Virus record (IMG/VR): IMGVR_UViG_3300048447_000259
Span: 1-25,090 of that record
Origin: a virus
Reading direction: 5' to 3' (one strand)
DNA: 25,090 nt
Below, in pieces: positions 1,237 to 8,645 of the stretch. Position 1 is the stretch's first letter, and each line of letters starts with the position of its first letter. The notes under the pieces were generated by a model that worked only from the letters and a program-made list of their open reading frames with translations, did not search any database and was not told the origin of the DNA. A program made the position numbers and the translations under genes.

Positions 1237-2712
1237 CTACAAAGGATACCCATAACGCTCCTTTTTTGGTTTTAATATGTATAAATTTTCTTTAGCTCTA
1301 GTTGCACCTACATACCAAACTCTATGCTCTTCATCAGATTTTTCAATACTGTTTTCTATAGAGTCTCTTATCTTTTTAGCATTATCTAAAACTAAAATAA
1401 CATTTTCACATTCACCACCTTTTGCTGCATGAATAGTAGATACTTCTATTCTTGGTAGTTGTGATAATTTTTCTCCATTGGCTAACATAGTTCTAATATA
1501 AAAACATTCGTCCTGGTCTGCTCTTGTAAATAAGTTATACCAAATAGCATCACTACCATAACCAAAATCATCCATAGTATAATATTGTTTGTCCTCTTTA
1601 AATTTAAAGAATGGACTATCTGGTAGGTATTCATGTATCTCTCTTACATCTGCTAAACTAAGTGTTGAACCTCCACATAAAGCATTAAAATTTAAAACTG
1701 CTTTATATAGTCTTGAATCATAACTCTTTCCAAATCTACAATTGTAATAAAGATTATTTTTTTTCAATTGTTTTGATATTTCATCAGAACGATAAGTAGT
1801 TCTGGTTAATATTAACCACTGATCTTTTGATAAATCTAAATGTTCTATATTATAAATTGGTTCAACTTTTCCTGGAGATCCATCTTTAGGTTCATATCTT
1901 TTTTCTTTTCTGGTGTTTATTCTACTTACAATTACTTCTGATATTTCTTGAATATTCTTAGGTACTCTATTTGATTTTGGTAATACTTGTTCTATAGCAG
2001 GTTCATTTAAAAATCTACTTACATCTGCACCAGCCCATGCAAATATAGCTTGGTCATCATCACCAGCTAGATAAACATCTTCAGATTTTTCTTTAAGTAC
2101 ATCAAACATTTCCCATTGTATTGGAGATAAATCTTGAGCTTCATCTATAAAAATTACATCAAACTCTTTACATTTATGTTTTTCTTCTACAAAATTTTTA
2201 ATCATATCATTGAAGTCATATAAAGTGTCACCTTTAAAATGATTGTAGTTTAGATATATGTGTCCTAATGTTTCATAATCTACATCATCACTCCATTCAT
2301 TTGTATTAAACTCTTCTTCCGGAGAAATATTTTTGACTCTAGCTTTATTGATAAGTTTAAAATATTCACTATTAAAATTTAAATAACCAGACTCATCACC
2401 TGTATCAGTGACTCTTAAATTTAATTCTTTACCTAGTTGTTCGTAGTGTACTGGTTGCATAACTTTTTCTTCACTCATACCTAATGTATGAAATGCAAAA
2501 GAATGTAAGGTTTGAAAGTATCTTAAATCTTTTTTTTCTAGTTGAGGGTTTCTATCTAACATTCTATTTTTTGCTTCATTAGCAGCCTTTTTTGTAAATG
2601 CAAAATAACCAATTCTATTTAAGTCGGTACCTTTTTTAATATACTCATCAACTAAATCTAATAGAGTAGTTGTTTTACCTGTACCTGGAGGACCAAATAT
2701 TTTTTTAATCAT
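1237..2712 (-). CDS. SF1 DNA helicase, UvrD/Rep type
   Basis: An ATP-dependent DNA helicase of superfamily 1A, 491 aa, with the motif set complete. Walker A is GPPGTGKT (residues 7-14), Ia is FAFTKKAANEA (37-47) and Ib is TLHSF (68-72). Motif II is DEAQD (190-194), III is GDDDQAIFAWAGAD (217-230), V is TIHAAKGGE (426-434) and VI is YVGATRAKENLYI (467-479, Arg472). The glutamine of GDDDQ and motif VI distinguish it from SF1B Dda/RecD-type enzymes. It is shorter than bacterial UvrD (about 720 aa), with compact 1B and 2B insertions, as in many phage forms. The ATG at 2712 shares one base with the primase stop, so the two are translationally coupled. The likely role is strand separation or repair during phage DNA replication. 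Confidence 0.9.
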   Translation of the reverse strand: MIKKIFGPPGTGKTTTLLDLVDEYIKKGTDLNRIGYFAFTKKAANEAKNRMLDRNPQLEKKDLRYFQTLHSFAFHTLGMSEEKVMQPVHYEQLGKELNLRVTDTGDESGYLNFNSEYFKLINKARVKNISPEEEFNTNEWSDDVDYETLGHIYLNYNHFKGDTLYDFNDMIKNFVEEKHKCKEFDVIFIDEAQDLSPIQWEMFDVLKEKSEDVYLAGDDDQAIFAWAGADVSRFLNEPAIEQVLPKSNRVPKNIQEISEVIVSRINTRKEKRYEPKDGSPGKVEPIYNIEHLDLSKDQWLILTRTTYRSDEISKQLKKNNLYYNCRFGKSYDSRLYKAVLNFNALCGGSTLSLADVREIHEYLPDSPFFKFKEDKQYYTMDDFGYGSDAIWYNLFTRADQDECFYIRTMLANGEKLSQLPRIEVSTIHAAKGGECENVILVLDNAKKIRDSIENSIEKSDEEHRVWYVGATRAKENLYILKPKKERYGYPL

Positions 2713-4355
2713 TAAAAATTACTCTGTTCAACATTACTTTTAATAACTTGTTCTGGTTGTATTTTATCTTCTAATAAATCCGGAAACTTATCTAAAGATA
2801 TTTTAACTACACTAACTGGAGAATGTGAGGTTTTATCTCCAGATTTTTTTGGAAATCTTTTACCTATACCAAACTCCGCTTTAAATAATCTTGTTAGTCT
2901 TTCAGCTGTTAAACCTTTACTCTCTTTCCATTCTTTATTTTTTAAAGAATCAAAAAAACTATTGTAAATAAAAAATGCTTCCATACCTTCTATTAGTACA
3001 GCACCTGTTTTAAATGCTGCGTATGTTGCTGCCTTTGGTCCATTTAAATATTTAAGTAAATACTCTTCAATCATTTCATCATCTGATGTACCTTTTGGTG
3101 GAGGAGTTGTTAATTTAGGTGGAAATAAATTATCTAAAATATCTTGAAACTCATTTGTTTTTATTTTAGGTGGTATCATATCAGCTGCTGCACCAATGAT
3201 TGCTCTTATGTTATCTAGTTCAATTATTTGTTTTATATTTTTTGCTCTGACTTCTTTTGTTGTTTGTCCATCTGCTAAAGTTACATTGAATGTATATTGT
3301 GGTTCTGGATAAGTTATTTTTTGTAATCCAGATAATGCTGGAAACAATCTTTGTTTATCAGATAAGTAACCAAATTTTCTTTTTCTACATTCTGCTTTCA
3401 TACATACTGGTTGTATTGGATCTTCATTACAAGTATGTCCTTTTGTTTCTCTTGCCCAAGATTTTAATTTCTTTTTAGTTTTATCTTCTGTCCAATCGAT
3501 AACACCATTTGCTCCGGGTTCAAAATATTTTCCTGGTGCTGCAATAACCATTCTCTCCCAATCATCTGGATATTTCTTTTTAGCAAACACCATATAGTTA
3601 TATAAGAATCTATCTCTACCATCTTTTAGTTTATCTTTAGTTAGTATTGAAAGACATGGTGGGCCATCATTAAACTCTTCACCACCACCATTTAATAAAT
3701 TTTTAGTATGCTCTAAAGAAAATTCTTCTAGTTGATCAGCGGTGTATGTATTAGCATCTATAACATCTACAAATTGATCAAATGTAAATGTTGTACCATC
3801 TAAATTAAACCCAACTCTTTCTGTTTTATTGTAGTAAGGTAAATTTATATATTGACCCATGTTCCATTTACCTTCTGAGTCTTTACCTAATTCAGTTTGT
3901 TTAGGATATATTTCAATGTTGGTAGGTAGTTTTAAAGTAAATAATAATCCTTCTAAAAAGTTTCTAATTGCAACTGCTCTAATAGGTTCTTTAACAAATA
4001 AATATAAATGTAATCCACCGCTTTTAGATTTAACTGGAACAATTGGTAGTTTATGTTCTGCAATAATATCTAAATATTTTCTATATGGAAAATTAGAATA
4101 ACTGTGTTGCTTATCATCAATATCAATAGCACCAAACCTAGCCATACCTTTATCATCACAAGGTTGAATACCTATTGATTGTTTACCTTGTAAGTGATCT
4201 AAATAATCTTGATCTTTAATTTCTCTATGAGCCCAACCATATACTGGTTTAGCTTTACCTGTACTAGGATCTATTTGTAAATTAGATAAGTCTGCTTCAC
4301 CAAATGCTCTTTGTAGTCCTGTAAATGCTTCTATAAATTTTTTATCTCTATCCAT
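2712..4355 (-). CDS. Archaeo-eukaryotic-type primase (PrimPol) with PriL-like Fe-S region
   Basis: This 547-aa protein has the three AEP active-site motifs. Motif 1 is AIDIDD (76-81), motif 2 is KSGGLHLYLF (111-120, catalytic-type His116) and motif 3 is NIEIYPKQ (146-153). The order and sequence are closest to the TOTE/BT4734-like primase domain as I know it. C-terminal to it are four cysteines: Cys234 in GPPC, Cys309 in HTC, Cys318 and Cys323. The PPC and HxC context resembles the 4Fe-4S domain of the primase large subunit PriL. The last 150 residues are a helical domain of unknown role. It should make primers for the phage polymerase. It sits between the 271-aa protein and the SF1 helicase. 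The catalytic domain is confident; the Fe-S proposal is inference. The start has only a weak AGAGAAAG. Confidence 0.85.
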   Translation of the reverse strand: MDRDKKFIEAFTGLQRAFGEADLSNLQIDPSTGKAKPVYGWAHREIKDQDYLDHLQGKQSIGIQPCDDKGMARFGAIDIDDKQHSYSNFPYRKYLDIIAEHKLPIVPVKSKSGGLHLYLFVKEPIRAVAIRNFLEGLLFTLKLPTNIEIYPKQTELGKDSEGKWNMGQYINLPYYNKTERVGFNLDGTTFTFDQFVDVIDANTYTADQLEEFSLEHTKNLLNGGGEEFNDGPPCLSILTKDKLKDGRDRFLYNYMVFAKKKYPDDWERMVIAAPGKYFEPGANGVIDWTEDKTKKKLKSWARETKGHTCNEDPIQPVCMKAECRKRKFGYLSDKQRLFPALSGLQKITYPEPQYTFNVTLADGQTTKEVRAKNIKQIIELDNIRAIIGAAADMIPPKIKTNEFQDILDNLFPPKLTTPPPKGTSDDEMIEEYLLKYLNGPKAATYAAFKTGAVLIEGMEAFFIYNSFFDSLKNKEWKESKGLTAERLTRLFKAEFGIGKRFPKKSGDKTSHSPVSVVKISLDKFPDLLEDKIQPEQVIKSNVEQSNF

Positions 4356-4421: not shown

Positions 4422-5237
4422 TTAAAAGTTTGATGAACCTTGACTAGTTTCTGAAGTACTAGCCTCACCATGTTTAACTTTAACATCACCTTTTGATACA
4501 TTCTCAGCAAAACGCTTAGCATCATCATAAAGATTCTTACTAGACACTGGGCCAATTTTACTGACCTCCCATCCAAACCAAGTACCTTTGTCATTAGACA
4601 TTTGAGTAGTTCTTAATTTGTATGTGTGACTATAGAAAGCAGGAGTAAACATCCCATTCTTTCCGTTCATCTTTATGCTTGCCATCATGCTGTTCCACTT
4701 TCTACTAATCTTTAATTGTGTTGATTTCATGGTAATCAACGCAGTAGAAGGTGTATCACTATTTACTATAACAAAATGACTTGCAGTCTTTTCGATATAA
4801 TTACCATTAGGTAATCTATCTTTATAAGACGCATCTCTTTTTGTTTGAGATAGTATATCACTAGATGATGAGTGAATAGCAACTGGAGCACCAGAACCTT
4901 CGCCTCTATCTTGCCATTCAATGTATTCTAATTTGTAATGACAAGGAATAACTTCGATTCCTTTTTCTCCATCAAACAATTCTCCAGTTACAGAATTGTA
5001 AATCATGCCTGGTTCTGCACCATCAACATATTTACCATCCCTTTTATTAACTTCTGGAGATAGTTGTCCGAGTATTTTTAAGAATGGTAATGCTAAATCT
5101 TCATGAGTTAGATTCTCCACTCCTTGGTTTGCATCTGCTTCAAACATATTTACAGATAGCGCACCTGCTGCAACTTTTTCAGTTACTGCATTTGTTTTCT
5201 TTGGTTCCTGGTTCTTTTTTAGTTGTTCTTGTGACAT
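4422..5237 (-). CDS. Replication-associated protein, possible ssDNA-binding protein
   Basis: The start at 5237 (MSQEQLKK) is chosen over an ATG seven codons earlier because an AGGAG lies at the right distance from it, giving 271 aa. The N-terminal 30 residues are polar and lysine-rich. The core is beta-rich, with alternating hydrophobic stretches (GIEVIPCHYKLEYIEW, FVIVNSDT, ALITMKSTQLKISRKW) and several Trp and Tyr residues. The tail is Ser/Thr/Glu-rich and ends in Phe. A flexible tail ending in Phe is typical of phage and bacterial SSBs, but this one is not strongly acidic. Its position directly upstream of the primase fits an SSB. I do not recognise the family by sequence, so SSB is an inference from layout and tail; a recombination or annealing partner is an alternative. 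Confidence 0.7.
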   Translation of the reverse strand: MSQEQLKKNQEPKKTNAVTEKVAAGALSVNMFEADANQGVENLTHEDLALPFLKILGQLSPEVNKRDGKYVDGAEPGMIYNSVTGELFDGEKGIEVIPCHYKLEYIEWQDRGEGSGAPVAIHSSSSDILSQTKRDASYKDRLPNGNYIEKTASHFVIVNSDTPSTALITMKSTQLKISRKWNSMMASIKMNGKNGMFTPAFYSHTYKLRTTQMSNDKGTWFGWEVSKIGPVSSKNLYDDAKRFAENVSKGDVKVKHGEASTSETSQGSSNF

Positions 5238-5245
5238 ATTTAGTT

Positions 5246-5250
5246 CTCCT
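5246..5250 (-). promoter_or_regulatory. Shine-Dalgarno that fixes the start of the 271-aa gene
   Basis: An AGGAG lies eight bases before the ATG at 5237 and immediately after the TAA of the preceding gene. The upstream in-frame ATG at 5258 lies inside the previous gene and has no such site, so 5237 is preferred. Confidence 0.75.
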
Positions 5251-5805
5251 TTATGCACGGGTTATTTTTGTTCTGTTTCCTGCGAACACATTAAATAGAT
5301 CAGAGGGCATATCTTGGCCCTTCTCGATACGCTCTCTGACCAACGCTTTAAGTGTCATAGGTTCAACCTTTAATTTTTGGGCAGGTTGATAGCCTTGACC
5401 TTGTGCAAGGACAGCATATTGTGCCGCCTTGTTATCTTCGTTACGACCAAAGGAAACAGTAACCTCATTTTTAATAAGGTCACCCAAGCCGTTTTCTCGA
5501 AGCCAATTAAATGCTTCTTCCTTTTTATCTGCAGGAATTGAAGCACCGTAGACTGGTTTAACTTCTATAGCTGAACCGTCTGCTAATTTCATTGTACTGA
5601 TATTCATTTCAGTCATCATAGTAGGTATGACTTCACCCGAAAGTGAATCAGCTTTTGATTTTAGTTTTTTCAAACTATCTTCTGTACTTTTTATTTGATC
5701 TTCTAAGTTTTTAAGTTTCTCAACTTGTTCACTTAAATCTGCTTTGTCATTATCTGATGACATCTTAAGCGGATTATGTTTGTCTTCTTCAAAGTTTATA
5801 CTCAT
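5251..5805 (-). CDS. 184-aa coiled-coil phage protein, unknown function
   Basis: The N-terminal third is acidic and then a predicted coiled coil (about residues 22-55, heptad-like KADLSEQVEKLKNLEDQIKS and onward). A compact alpha/beta region follows, with KPVYGASIPADKKEEAFNWL and a hydrophobic, Gly/Gln-rich stretch. The layout recalls small phage proteins such as the Gp157-type nuclease or recombination helpers, but I cannot assign it to a family. The ATG at 5805 has GGAG about nine bases upstream and overlaps the preceding gene by 17 bases. It is followed within 14 bases by the possible SSB gene, so the two probably form a translational pair. A replication or recombination accessory role is inference from position. 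Confidence 0.7.
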   Translation of the reverse strand: MSINFEEDKHNPLKMSSDNDKADLSEQVEKLKNLEDQIKSTEDSLKKLKSKADSLSGEVIPTMMTEMNISTMKLADGSAIEVKPVYGASIPADKKEEAFNWLRENGLGDLIKNEVTVSFGRNEDNKAAQYAVLAQGQGYQPAQKLKVEPMTLKALVRERIEKGQDMPSDLFNVFAGNRTKITRA

Positions 5806-6533: not shown

Positions 6534-7967
6534 ATGAATTATAAATTTAAAACTAAACCTTATGCGCATCAAATAACTGCGTTAGAAAAGTCATGGAATA
6601 AAGAAGTATATGCTTACTTTATGGAAATGGGTACTGGTAAATCAAAAGTATTAATTGACAATATATCCATGCTTTATGACAAAGGTAAAATTAATGGTGC
6701 TTTAATTATTGCACCAAAAGGTGTTTACCAAAATTGGTATGATACAGAAATTCCTGTTCATATGGCTGACCATATTGAAAGAGACGTTGTGCTATGGAAA
6801 GCAATGATTAATCAAAAACAACAAAACGAATTAAATAAACTATTTGAGTCTACAGAAAAACTTCATGTTCTTTGTATGAATGTTGAAGCTTTCTCTACCA
6901 AAAAAGGATTAGAGTTTGCAGCTAAATTTATGAGTTGCCATAATACTTTAATGGCTATTGATGAGTCTACTACAATTAAAAACCCAGATGCTAAGCGTAC
7001 TAAAAATATTGTATTGTTAGGTAAGCATGCTAAATACAGAAGAATATTAACTGGTTCTCCAGTTACTAAATCACCTTTAGATTTATATAAACAGTGTGAG
7101 TTTCTTGATCCATATTTATTGGACTACAGTTCTTATTATGCATTTAGAACTAGATATGCTTTAATGAGATCCGCTAACTTTGGTGGAAGATCAGTTCAAA
7201 TAATAGTCGGTTACAAAAACTTAGGAGAACTTTCTCAAAAACTAGAACCATTTTCTTATCGTTGTTTAAAAGAAGATTGTTTAGATTTACCAGATTATAC
7301 TTATACAAAACGTATAATTCAATTAACACCAGAACAAAAAAAGTTATATCAACAAATGAAAACTTTAGCCTTAGCTCAGTTAGATGGAAAACAAATGACT
7401 ACTCAATCTGCTATGGTTCAATTGATGAGATTGCATCAAATTACTTGTGGTCATTTTACTGCTGATGATGGAACTATAAAAGAAGTTAAGAATGAAAGAC
7501 TAACTGCTTTAGTTGATATCTTAGAAGAAGTTGAAAACAAAGCGGTTATCTGGGCTCACTATAGACACGATATCAATGCAATTGTTAATGCAGTAGAAAA
7601 AAACTTTGGTAAAGACTCATATGTAACTTACTATGGTGACACAACTAATGAAGAAAGACAAAATGCTATTAAACAAATTCAAGATTCTAATAGTCCTGTA
7701 AGATTTATTATTGGTACGCCACAAACCGGTGGATATGGTATCACATTAACTGGTGCTAATACAATGGTTTATTATGCTAATGGTTATGATTATGAAAAAA
7801 GAATACAATCAGAAGCAAGAATAAATCGTGCTGGTCAAACTAGAAAAATGACTTACATAGATATTATTGCAGAAGATACAGTTGATGAAAAAATTGTAAA
7901 AGCATTAGTAGGTAAAATGAATATTGCTAGTAAAATAACTGGTGACGATTTAAAGGACTGGCTATGA
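6534..7967 (+). CDS. SNF2-like SF2 helicase/ATPase
   Basis: A 477-aa superfamily 2 ATPase with both RecA-like lobes. A Q-like PYAHQ (9-13) precedes Walker A MGTGKS (32-37). Motif II is DEST (143-146) rather than DEAH/DEAD, and motif III is TGSPV (173-177). The C-lobe has motif V GTPQTGGYGITLTGA and motif VI QSEARINRAGQTRK. Together with the INRxGQ signature this points to the SNF2 branch seen in many phages, where DExx variants are common. The start has an AGGA upstream and lies just behind the rightward promoter, so it is probably expressed early. It and its overlapping neighbour are the only plus-strand genes. A role in fork remodelling or removing bound proteins is family-based inference; it is not a hexameric DnaB-type helicase. 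Confidence 0.88.
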   Translation: MNYKFKTKPYAHQITALEKSWNKEVYAYFMEMGTGKSKVLIDNISMLYDKGKINGALIIAPKGVYQNWYDTEIPVHMADHIERDVVLWKAMINQKQQNELNKLFESTEKLHVLCMNVEAFSTKKGLEFAAKFMSCHNTLMAIDESTTIKNPDAKRTKNIVLLGKHAKYRRILTGSPVTKSPLDLYKQCEFLDPYLLDYSSYYAFRTRYALMRSANFGGRSVQIIVGYKNLGELSQKLEPFSYRCLKEDCLDLPDYTYTKRIIQLTPEQKKLYQQMKTLALAQLDGKQMTTQSAMVQLMRLHQITCGHFTADDGTIKEVKNERLTALVDILEEVENKAVIWAHYRHDINAIVNAVEKNFGKDSYVTYYGDTTNEERQNAIKQIQDSNSPVRFIIGTPQTGGYGITLTGANTMVYYANGYDYEKRIQSEARINRAGQTRKMTYIDIIAEDTVDEKIVKALVGKMNIASKITGDDLKDWL

Positions 7968-8272
7968 TAACACCTTTACATATTGTAGCAGCATTACCTG
8001 TTAAGTTTTGGTACCCCAAACAATTTAGTTTAATTTGGTTTTCAATTACTAATGTTTTAATAGACATAGAAGTTTTATATTATATGGCATTACTTGAATG
8101 GCCAATACATAGATTCTTTCATAGTTTAGTTGGTGTTACTATAATAGGGGTAGTTTGTTTTGGTTTATCTTTGATTTTAAAACACAAAAAGTTACCTAGT
8201 TTTTTAGGTTGTTTTATAGGTGTATATTCACACTATATTATTGATGGTTTTTATCATGGTCAATGGATGTAA
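7964..8272 (+). CDS. DUF457/YdjM-like membrane-bound hydrolase-like protein
   Basis: This 102-aa protein has a TPLHIVAALP opening, three hydrophobic segments and a scattered set of His/Asp residues: His6, Asp34, His49, His53 (HRFFHS), His90, Asp94 and His98 (SHYIIDGFYH). This pattern matches the YdjM/DUF457 family of small inner-membrane proteins annotated as metal-dependent hydrolases; the activity is poorly characterised. It is shorter than cellular members (about 170-200 aa). Its ATG overlaps the helicase stop (ATGA), so it is translated by coupling. Its last 35 bases overlap the end of the convergent SpeD-like gene. Membrane location is clear; the enzymatic role and its purpose in infection are unknown. 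Confidence 0.75.
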   Translation: MITPLHIVAALPVKFWYPKQFSLIWFSITNVLIDIEVLYYMALLEWPIHRFFHSLVGVTIIGVVCFGLSLILKHKKLPSFLGCFIGVYSHYIIDGFYHGQWM

Positions 8273-8645
8273 TATCAACTAAACCAGTCTCTCTATTTAA
8301 AAATTTATATTCTATTTTTTCTATATTAAAATCAGATTTAATTTTACTGCATATTTTTTCTACATCAAATTTACCACAAGAATAAACATCAAACTGCATT
8401 AATGCAGGTGAAGGTTCATCCCATACATGCATGGCAATATGTGAAGTTTCTATGATAGCAACAGCTGTAATACCTCTGTTACCTTCCATTTGACAATACT
8501 TAACATAAGGACCCATGAACACTTTCATATCTATGAAAGAAATAAAATCTTTCATCCATTCTGTTAATTGCTCTTCATCTGTAGGAGGTTTAATTGCTTC
8601 AGCACGAATGATTAAGTGCTGATGCACCAATAAACTATTTTTCAT
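8238..8645 (-). CDS. S-adenosylmethionine decarboxylase-like protein (SpeD family)
   Basis: A 135-aa homologue of the prokaryotic pyruvoyl-dependent AdoMet decarboxylase, about the usual length of the short class (115-135 aa). The self-cleavage context is present: TSHIAMH contains Ser68, the would-be pyruvoyl precursor, and His73; Cys90 lies in DVYSCG. The usual HTWPE after the histidine is replaced by HVWDEPSP, adding two residues before the cysteine. Classical enzymes supply decarboxylated AdoMet for spermidine synthesis, but many SpeD homologues have become ornithine or arginine decarboxylases. As an auxiliary metabolic gene, speD is well known in marine phages. It starts right after the XhlA-like gene without its own clear Shine-Dalgarno. 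The fold is confident, the substrate is not. Confidence 0.85.
   Translation of the reverse strand: MKNSLLVHQHLIIRAEAIKPPTDEEQLTEWMKDFISFIDMKVFMGPYVKYCQMEGNRGITAVAIIETSHIAMHVWDEPSPALMQFDVYSCGKFDVEKICSKIKSDFNIEKIEYKFLNRETGLVDITSIDHDKNHQ

Follow-up and report, generated by a model that had tools for sequence, protein, structure and literature searches.

A phage primase that joins an AEP-TOTE-type core to a PriCT-1-type domain with a PriL-like set of four cysteines

Herpesvirus UL52 is an AEP primase that works with the SF1 helicase UL5, and the role of the iron–sulfur cluster in primases is debated. Single chains that join an AEP core to PriL-like cysteines are already known: PolpTN2, from the Thermococcus plasmid pTN2, combines an AEP core, a PriL-like four-cysteine region and a C-terminal winged helix (PMC3973330, PMC5862659). 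Conserved cysteines are likewise known from the C-terminal PriCT domain of the CRISPR-associated Prim-Pol (CAPP) of Marinitoga (PMC8211822). A model of full-length CAPP gives its C-terminal domain (CTD) a Pri2/PriX-like role, in which it is proposed to hold the initiating triphosphate (PMC10345425). PriX is a relative of the N-terminal part of the PriL iron–sulfur region, and a kinship between PriCT and PriL has been argued before, mainly via PriCT-2, with two of the four cysteines aligned (PMC5862659). Here we analyse a marine phage primase whose four-cysteine domain ties PriCT-1 to PriL, two accessory domains of only suspected kinship. A literature search, outside which most subscription papers lay, found no account of this domain in the phage primase family concerned.

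The window (the whole stretch of DNA analysed here, 25,090 bases) comes from an IMG/VR virus record, which is likely a fragment. It encodes a 547-residue primase in which the AEP motifs and four cysteines that an earlier note had picked out were all found in place:

2712–4355, minus strand: primase ORF, comprising an AEP core, a four-cysteine domain and a C-terminal winged-helix-like domain (translation, profile matches and model)
3693–4355, minus strand: AEP (Prim-Pol) catalytic domain, residues 1–221 (AEP-TOTE PF22548; CAPP 7nqf_B)
4116–4124, minus strand: motif I, D78-I-D80, metal ligands, within AIDIDD (invariant in alignments)
3996–4022, minus strand: motif II, SGGLHLYLF with H116 (H116 invariant in alignments)
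3897–3914, minus strand: motif III region, EIYPKQ with E148 (E148 and P151 invariant in alignments)
3366–3668, minus strand: PriCT-1/PriL-type four-cysteine helical domain, residues 230–330 (profiles, model and cysteines)
3654–3656, minus strand: Cys234, in PPC (invariant)
3429–3431, minus strand: Cys309 (invariant)
3402–3404, minus strand: Cys318 (invariant)
3387–3389, minus strand: Cys323 (invariant)
2778–3095, minus strand: C-terminal winged-helix-like domain, residues 421–526 (5vfx_D, Z 7.9, 87 aligned, rmsd 3.0; a modest score)

The PHROG 21866 'primase' profile spans the whole protein (residues 5–524, E 3.7e-123), and relatives occur in 24 records of phages and in more than 110 stretches from IMG/VR. 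The nearest annotated relative, gp04 of Pelagibacter phage HTVC027P, is 45% identical; the primases of HTVC027P and HTVC023P belong to the same protein family, lie in a similar gene order and are annotated simply as 'primase', and differ from the window protein only by sequence divergence. A contig labelled as a Thermoplasmatales archaeon (L093) encodes a primase 82% identical to that of the window together with an SF1 helicase; the contig probably stems from a phage but was placed in the archaeal bin.

The window primase is a member of the AEP superfamily, of the AEP-TOTE PF22548 branch, with a Prim-Pol fold, as the earlier note had proposed for its core. The Pfam model matches residues 44–179 (E 6.9e-14, 52.4 bits against a cut-off of 27), and D78, D80, H116 and E148 are unchanged across all 51 rows of an alignment (A2) that reaches down to 21% identity; E148 would be the third catalytic acidic residue. 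An AlphaFold model of the full-length protein, predicted with 51 sequences drawn from IMG/VR and genome loci, has a mean pLDDT of 89.8. In a fold search, its residues 1–219 match the CAPP Prim-Pol 7nqf_B with Z 20.3 (rmsd 3.2, 196 aligned); the AEPs ranked next score much lower, with Z about 10. Whereas the AEP cores of CAPP (7nqd/7nqf) and the window primase are alike at Z 20, the window primase has no N-terminal TPR (the AEP fold starts at residue 1, and no TPR match was found), lies among phage replication genes and carries an extra winged-helix-like tail; the cysteines of the two proteins are likened here from the published description of CAPP. The same fold search aligned the AEP domain with Helicobacter pylori HP0184 (PDB 2atz, an entry whose title gives just the locus; Z 10.5, 158 aligned, rmsd 5.8), which possibly has an AEP-type fold.

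The four cysteines behind the core, whose loss in homologues would have spoken against the earlier note, are identical in 86 of 86 aligned phage homologues and in every row of A2. Most full-length relatives in bacterial and archaeal assemblies retain them as well, often on short contigs with a phage-like gene order. Cys66 varies among homologues and was dismissed as a ligand. The spacing in the window primase is PPC-75-C-9-C-5-C; across 51 family members, the first interval is 67–77, the second 9 (49 of 51) or 11, and the third 5 throughout. The archaeal PriLs compared have [FL]PPC-72/73-C-9-C-6 to 14-C, whereas the eukaryote-type Asgard PriLs have 80/81-9(10)-41 to 50, so that the PPC context and spacing follow the archaeal pattern and not the eukaryotic one, and only the archaeal half of the 'eukaryotic/archaeal' spacing originally suggested stands. 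Canonical TOTE proteins of Bacteroidota (most of 640–1000 residues) show no four-cysteine motif behind their AEP domain.

We suggest that the domain most likely binds one [4Fe-4S] cluster, although we infer the type of metal. The same four cysteines might instead bind structural zinc, like PrimPol's UL52-like finger or other AEP zinc motifs, with no redox-active cluster. Four-cysteine sites commonly bind zinc, and PrimPol has a zinc finger beside its AEP core (PMC4027207). However, CxxC knuckles are absent, the interval between the first and second cysteines is long, and the 9-residue interval between the second and third equals that of PriL, which binds an Fe–S cluster; furthermore, intact PolpTN2, whose motif is of this kind, has a brown colour (PMC3973330). 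Whereas UL52 has a zinc finger, the window primase has the PriL-type set: no histidine after the AEP core is invariant in the 51 rows of A2, where four cysteines are, in contrast to the Cys-His-Cys-Cys finger of UL52. We regard structural zinc as unlikely.

By sequence, the region that the earlier note had called PriL-like has the cysteine set of PriL but is a domain of the PriCT-1 type. In hhalign, the four-cysteine profile matches the cysteine-less PriCT-1 domain of AEP relatives with P 4.4e-7, and masking the PP and cysteine columns leaves P unaffected. Pfam PriCT_1 (PF08708) matches 25 of the 51 family members (best E 1.1e-6), whereas the window protein, searched alone, has no Pfam match within the four-cysteine domain. 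The profile also matches a CAPP-like bacterial protein (P 1.4e-5, 89 columns), eukaryote-type Asgard PriL (P 5.3e-5, 32 columns) and archaeal PriL (P 0.004, 89 columns, the four cysteines in register). Masking PPC and the cysteines abolishes the archaeal PriL similarity (P 0.34), and shuffles with the motif columns fixed equal the real archaeal PriL score in 4 of 40 cases; none of the 40 reaches the real score for Asgard PriL, the CAPP-like protein or PriCT-1. In a profile search of 1,281 ORFs that included 60 PriLs, PriLs made up 45 of the 62 weak matches, against 2–33 PriLs when the search was run with ten motif-fixed shuffles. Neither the window protein nor any family member matched PF04104 (DNA_primase_lrg) up to E 1, and a search of PDB sequences with the four-cysteine profile gave a single, meaningless match (E 0.85). 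Judged from these profiles, the direct similarity to PriL appears to rest mostly on the PPC and cysteine motif. Compared with the PriL/Pri2 iron–sulfur domain (PF04104), the window domain has the PPC-C-C-C set with archaeal spacing in common but comes without a PriL N-terminal domain or a Pfam PriL match, and is fused to the catalytic core. PolpTN2 differs in another way: as described, its PriL-like domain is distinct from its PriCT-1 domain and its motif II has no histidine, whereas in the window primase a single domain shows PriCT-1 and PriL-type traits together.

Modelled alone, the four-cysteine domain has a pLDDT of 84.7 and a pTM of 0.82. Foldseek against the PDB returned seven matches at E up to 10, with PriX first and sixth (weak, E 5.6 and 8.8), and PriX likewise headed the VIA list, again weakly (Z 5.0, 85 aligned, rmsd 3.5). 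It is unlikely that a primase subunit would head a search of 350,542 chains by accident; solved C-terminal domains of eukaryotic PriL were absent from the matches, an absence that excludes nothing. We read the domain as a module of the PriCT-1 type with the cluster ligands of PriL, either retained or shared. Convergence, in which a cysteine-less PriCT-1 domain acquired four cysteines independently, would explain why the archaeal PriL similarity hinges on PPC and the cysteines, but it accords poorly with the Asgard PriL score that no shuffle matched, with the rank of PriX and with the PPC context and 9-residue interval common to PriL, and we consider it improbable.

Two further loci carry related arrangements. 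In a Bacteroidota genome (L220; 1105–2175, minus strand), a 357-residue protein, the CAPP-like match mentioned above, joins an AEP to a C-terminal four-cysteine domain related to the phage one, and its gene adjoins that of an ATPase of conjugation-like appearance. In a bin labelled Lokiarchaeota (L197; 1018–1869, minus strand), a 284-residue open frame is another AEP–PriL fusion: its AEP-TOTE-like core is followed by a tail that resembles archaeal PriL (profile P 5e-9; cysteine spacing 75-9-5).

The primase gene lies near the following genes, which include the SF1 and SF2 helicases that the earlier note had recognized nearby:

1237–2712, minus strand: SF1 UvrD-type helicase (PF00580, E 1.1e-33; conserved neighbour)
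4422–5258, minus strand: Pam3 gp34-like gene, directly upstream of the primase (PF23977, E 2.8e-72)
6534–7967, plus strand: SNF2-type (SF2) helicase (PF00176, E 9.6e-22)

The helicase start and primase stop share one base (TAATG), and the two genes are probably translationally coupled. An SF1 helicase lies downstream in 125 of the 129 four-cysteine loci that have enough downstream sequence, most of the 125 being related IMG/VR contigs and thus not independent, and in 0 of 19 AEP relatives without the four cysteines (L135–L158). The surmise that this single-chain layout next to helicases is out of the ordinary among phages therefore does not hold: relatives of this layout are widespread in phages, the PHROG 21866 profile covers the whole protein, and CAPP and PolpTN2 provide parallels. 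Within this family, the pairing is the norm. The pairing of an AEP primase with an SF1 helicase resembles UL52/UL5 by analogy, the pairing in the window being known from gene order. All 11 phage records that carry a window-type primase have a UvrD-type helicase, whereas none of the 11 has DnaB_C (DnaB-type helicase) or a DnaG zinc ribbon above the cut-off. In a longer relative (L018), a PolA (family A DNA polymerase) gene follows the helicase gene. The conserved helicase neighbour, the absence of DnaB and DnaG and the PolA gene together place the primase gene in a replication cassette. Replication in the phages examined seems to rely on neither a DnaB-type helicase nor a DnaG-type primase encoded by the phage itself, and some phages of the family infect very abundant marine bacteria.

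These neighbours also bear on whether the phage carries a CAPP- or TOTE-like polymerase for defence or repair rather than a fork primase. The best structural match is indeed a CRISPR-associated Prim-Pol, and the Pfam family is named for TOTE conflict systems. However, nine proteins of the replication region scanned around the primase include no cas-type domain and no CRISPR-type or nuclease partner, a helicase gene adjoins the primase gene and, in the longer relative, PolA follows, the phage records are without a DnaG-type primase above the cut-off, and the CAPP model NF040561 scores the window primase at 55.8 bits, below its cut-off of 200. A defence or repair role is thus highly improbable. 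When NF040561 was searched against another phylum, all matches fell short of the cut-off, most of them lying in open frames of about 700–1000 residues.

The gene probably supplies the phage with a replicative primase of its own, in which the AEP core primes and the PriCT-1-type, PriL/PriX-related four-cysteine domain, most likely holding a [4Fe-4S] cluster, acts like Pri2/PriX. Primer synthesis would fall to residues 1–221, where D78, D80 and E148 would bind two metal ions and H116 the incoming nucleotide. Across from the active site, the four-cysteine domain (about residues 230–330) would bind the 5′ triphosphate of either the initiating nucleotide or the primer end. The winged-helix-like tail would anchor DNA or the partner, template opening would be the task of the SF1 helicase, which is probably translationally coupled to the primase, and the primer would be extended by a family A DNA polymerase, as encoded in the longer relative. 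We infer this division of labour, as well as physical contact between primase and helicase. Since the core of CAPP primes in the absence of the CTD (PMC10345425), the four-cysteine domain may modulate priming rather than make it possible; PolpTN2 without its PriL-like part is altered in activity and stringency (PMC3973330).

The cysteine-less relatives are built differently. In AEP–SF3 fusion primases, PriCT-1 occupies the same position after the same type of AEP but lacks the four cysteines, and the two such relatives examined carry PriCT_1 and DUF5906 or DUF927 in one chain, that is, a fused SF3-type helicase. In an AEP tree, cysteine-less forms are nested in the four-cysteine group at several places, and well-supported branches force at least 2–3 changes, the tree being unrooted with several long branches. 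This interleaving suggests repeated switches between an AEP plus four-cysteine protein with a separate SF1 helicase and an AEP plus PriCT-1 protein with a fused SF3-type helicase, although domain recombination could yield the same tree picture. More tentatively, and on balance doubtfully, PriCT-1 and the PriL iron–sulfur domain might form one family, of which this phage lineage keeps the iron–sulfur form in a single-chain primase that makes up a herpesvirus-like primosome together with an SF1 helicase; the cysteines would then have been lost more than once upon gain of a fused SF3-type helicase. Relatives with and without the four cysteines in a one-chain phage enzyme offer a natural comparison for the role of the cluster.

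Upstream of the primase, the window also contains a Pam3 gp33-like gene (5251–5805). Relatives of gp34 occur in 504 phage records, many of them from Pseudomonas phages, so that the gp34- and gp33-like genes may code for factors of general use in replication or recombination. An S-adenosylmethionine decarboxylase gene (8238–8645, E 3.3e-16) is a possible polyamine-related auxiliary gene of the phage.
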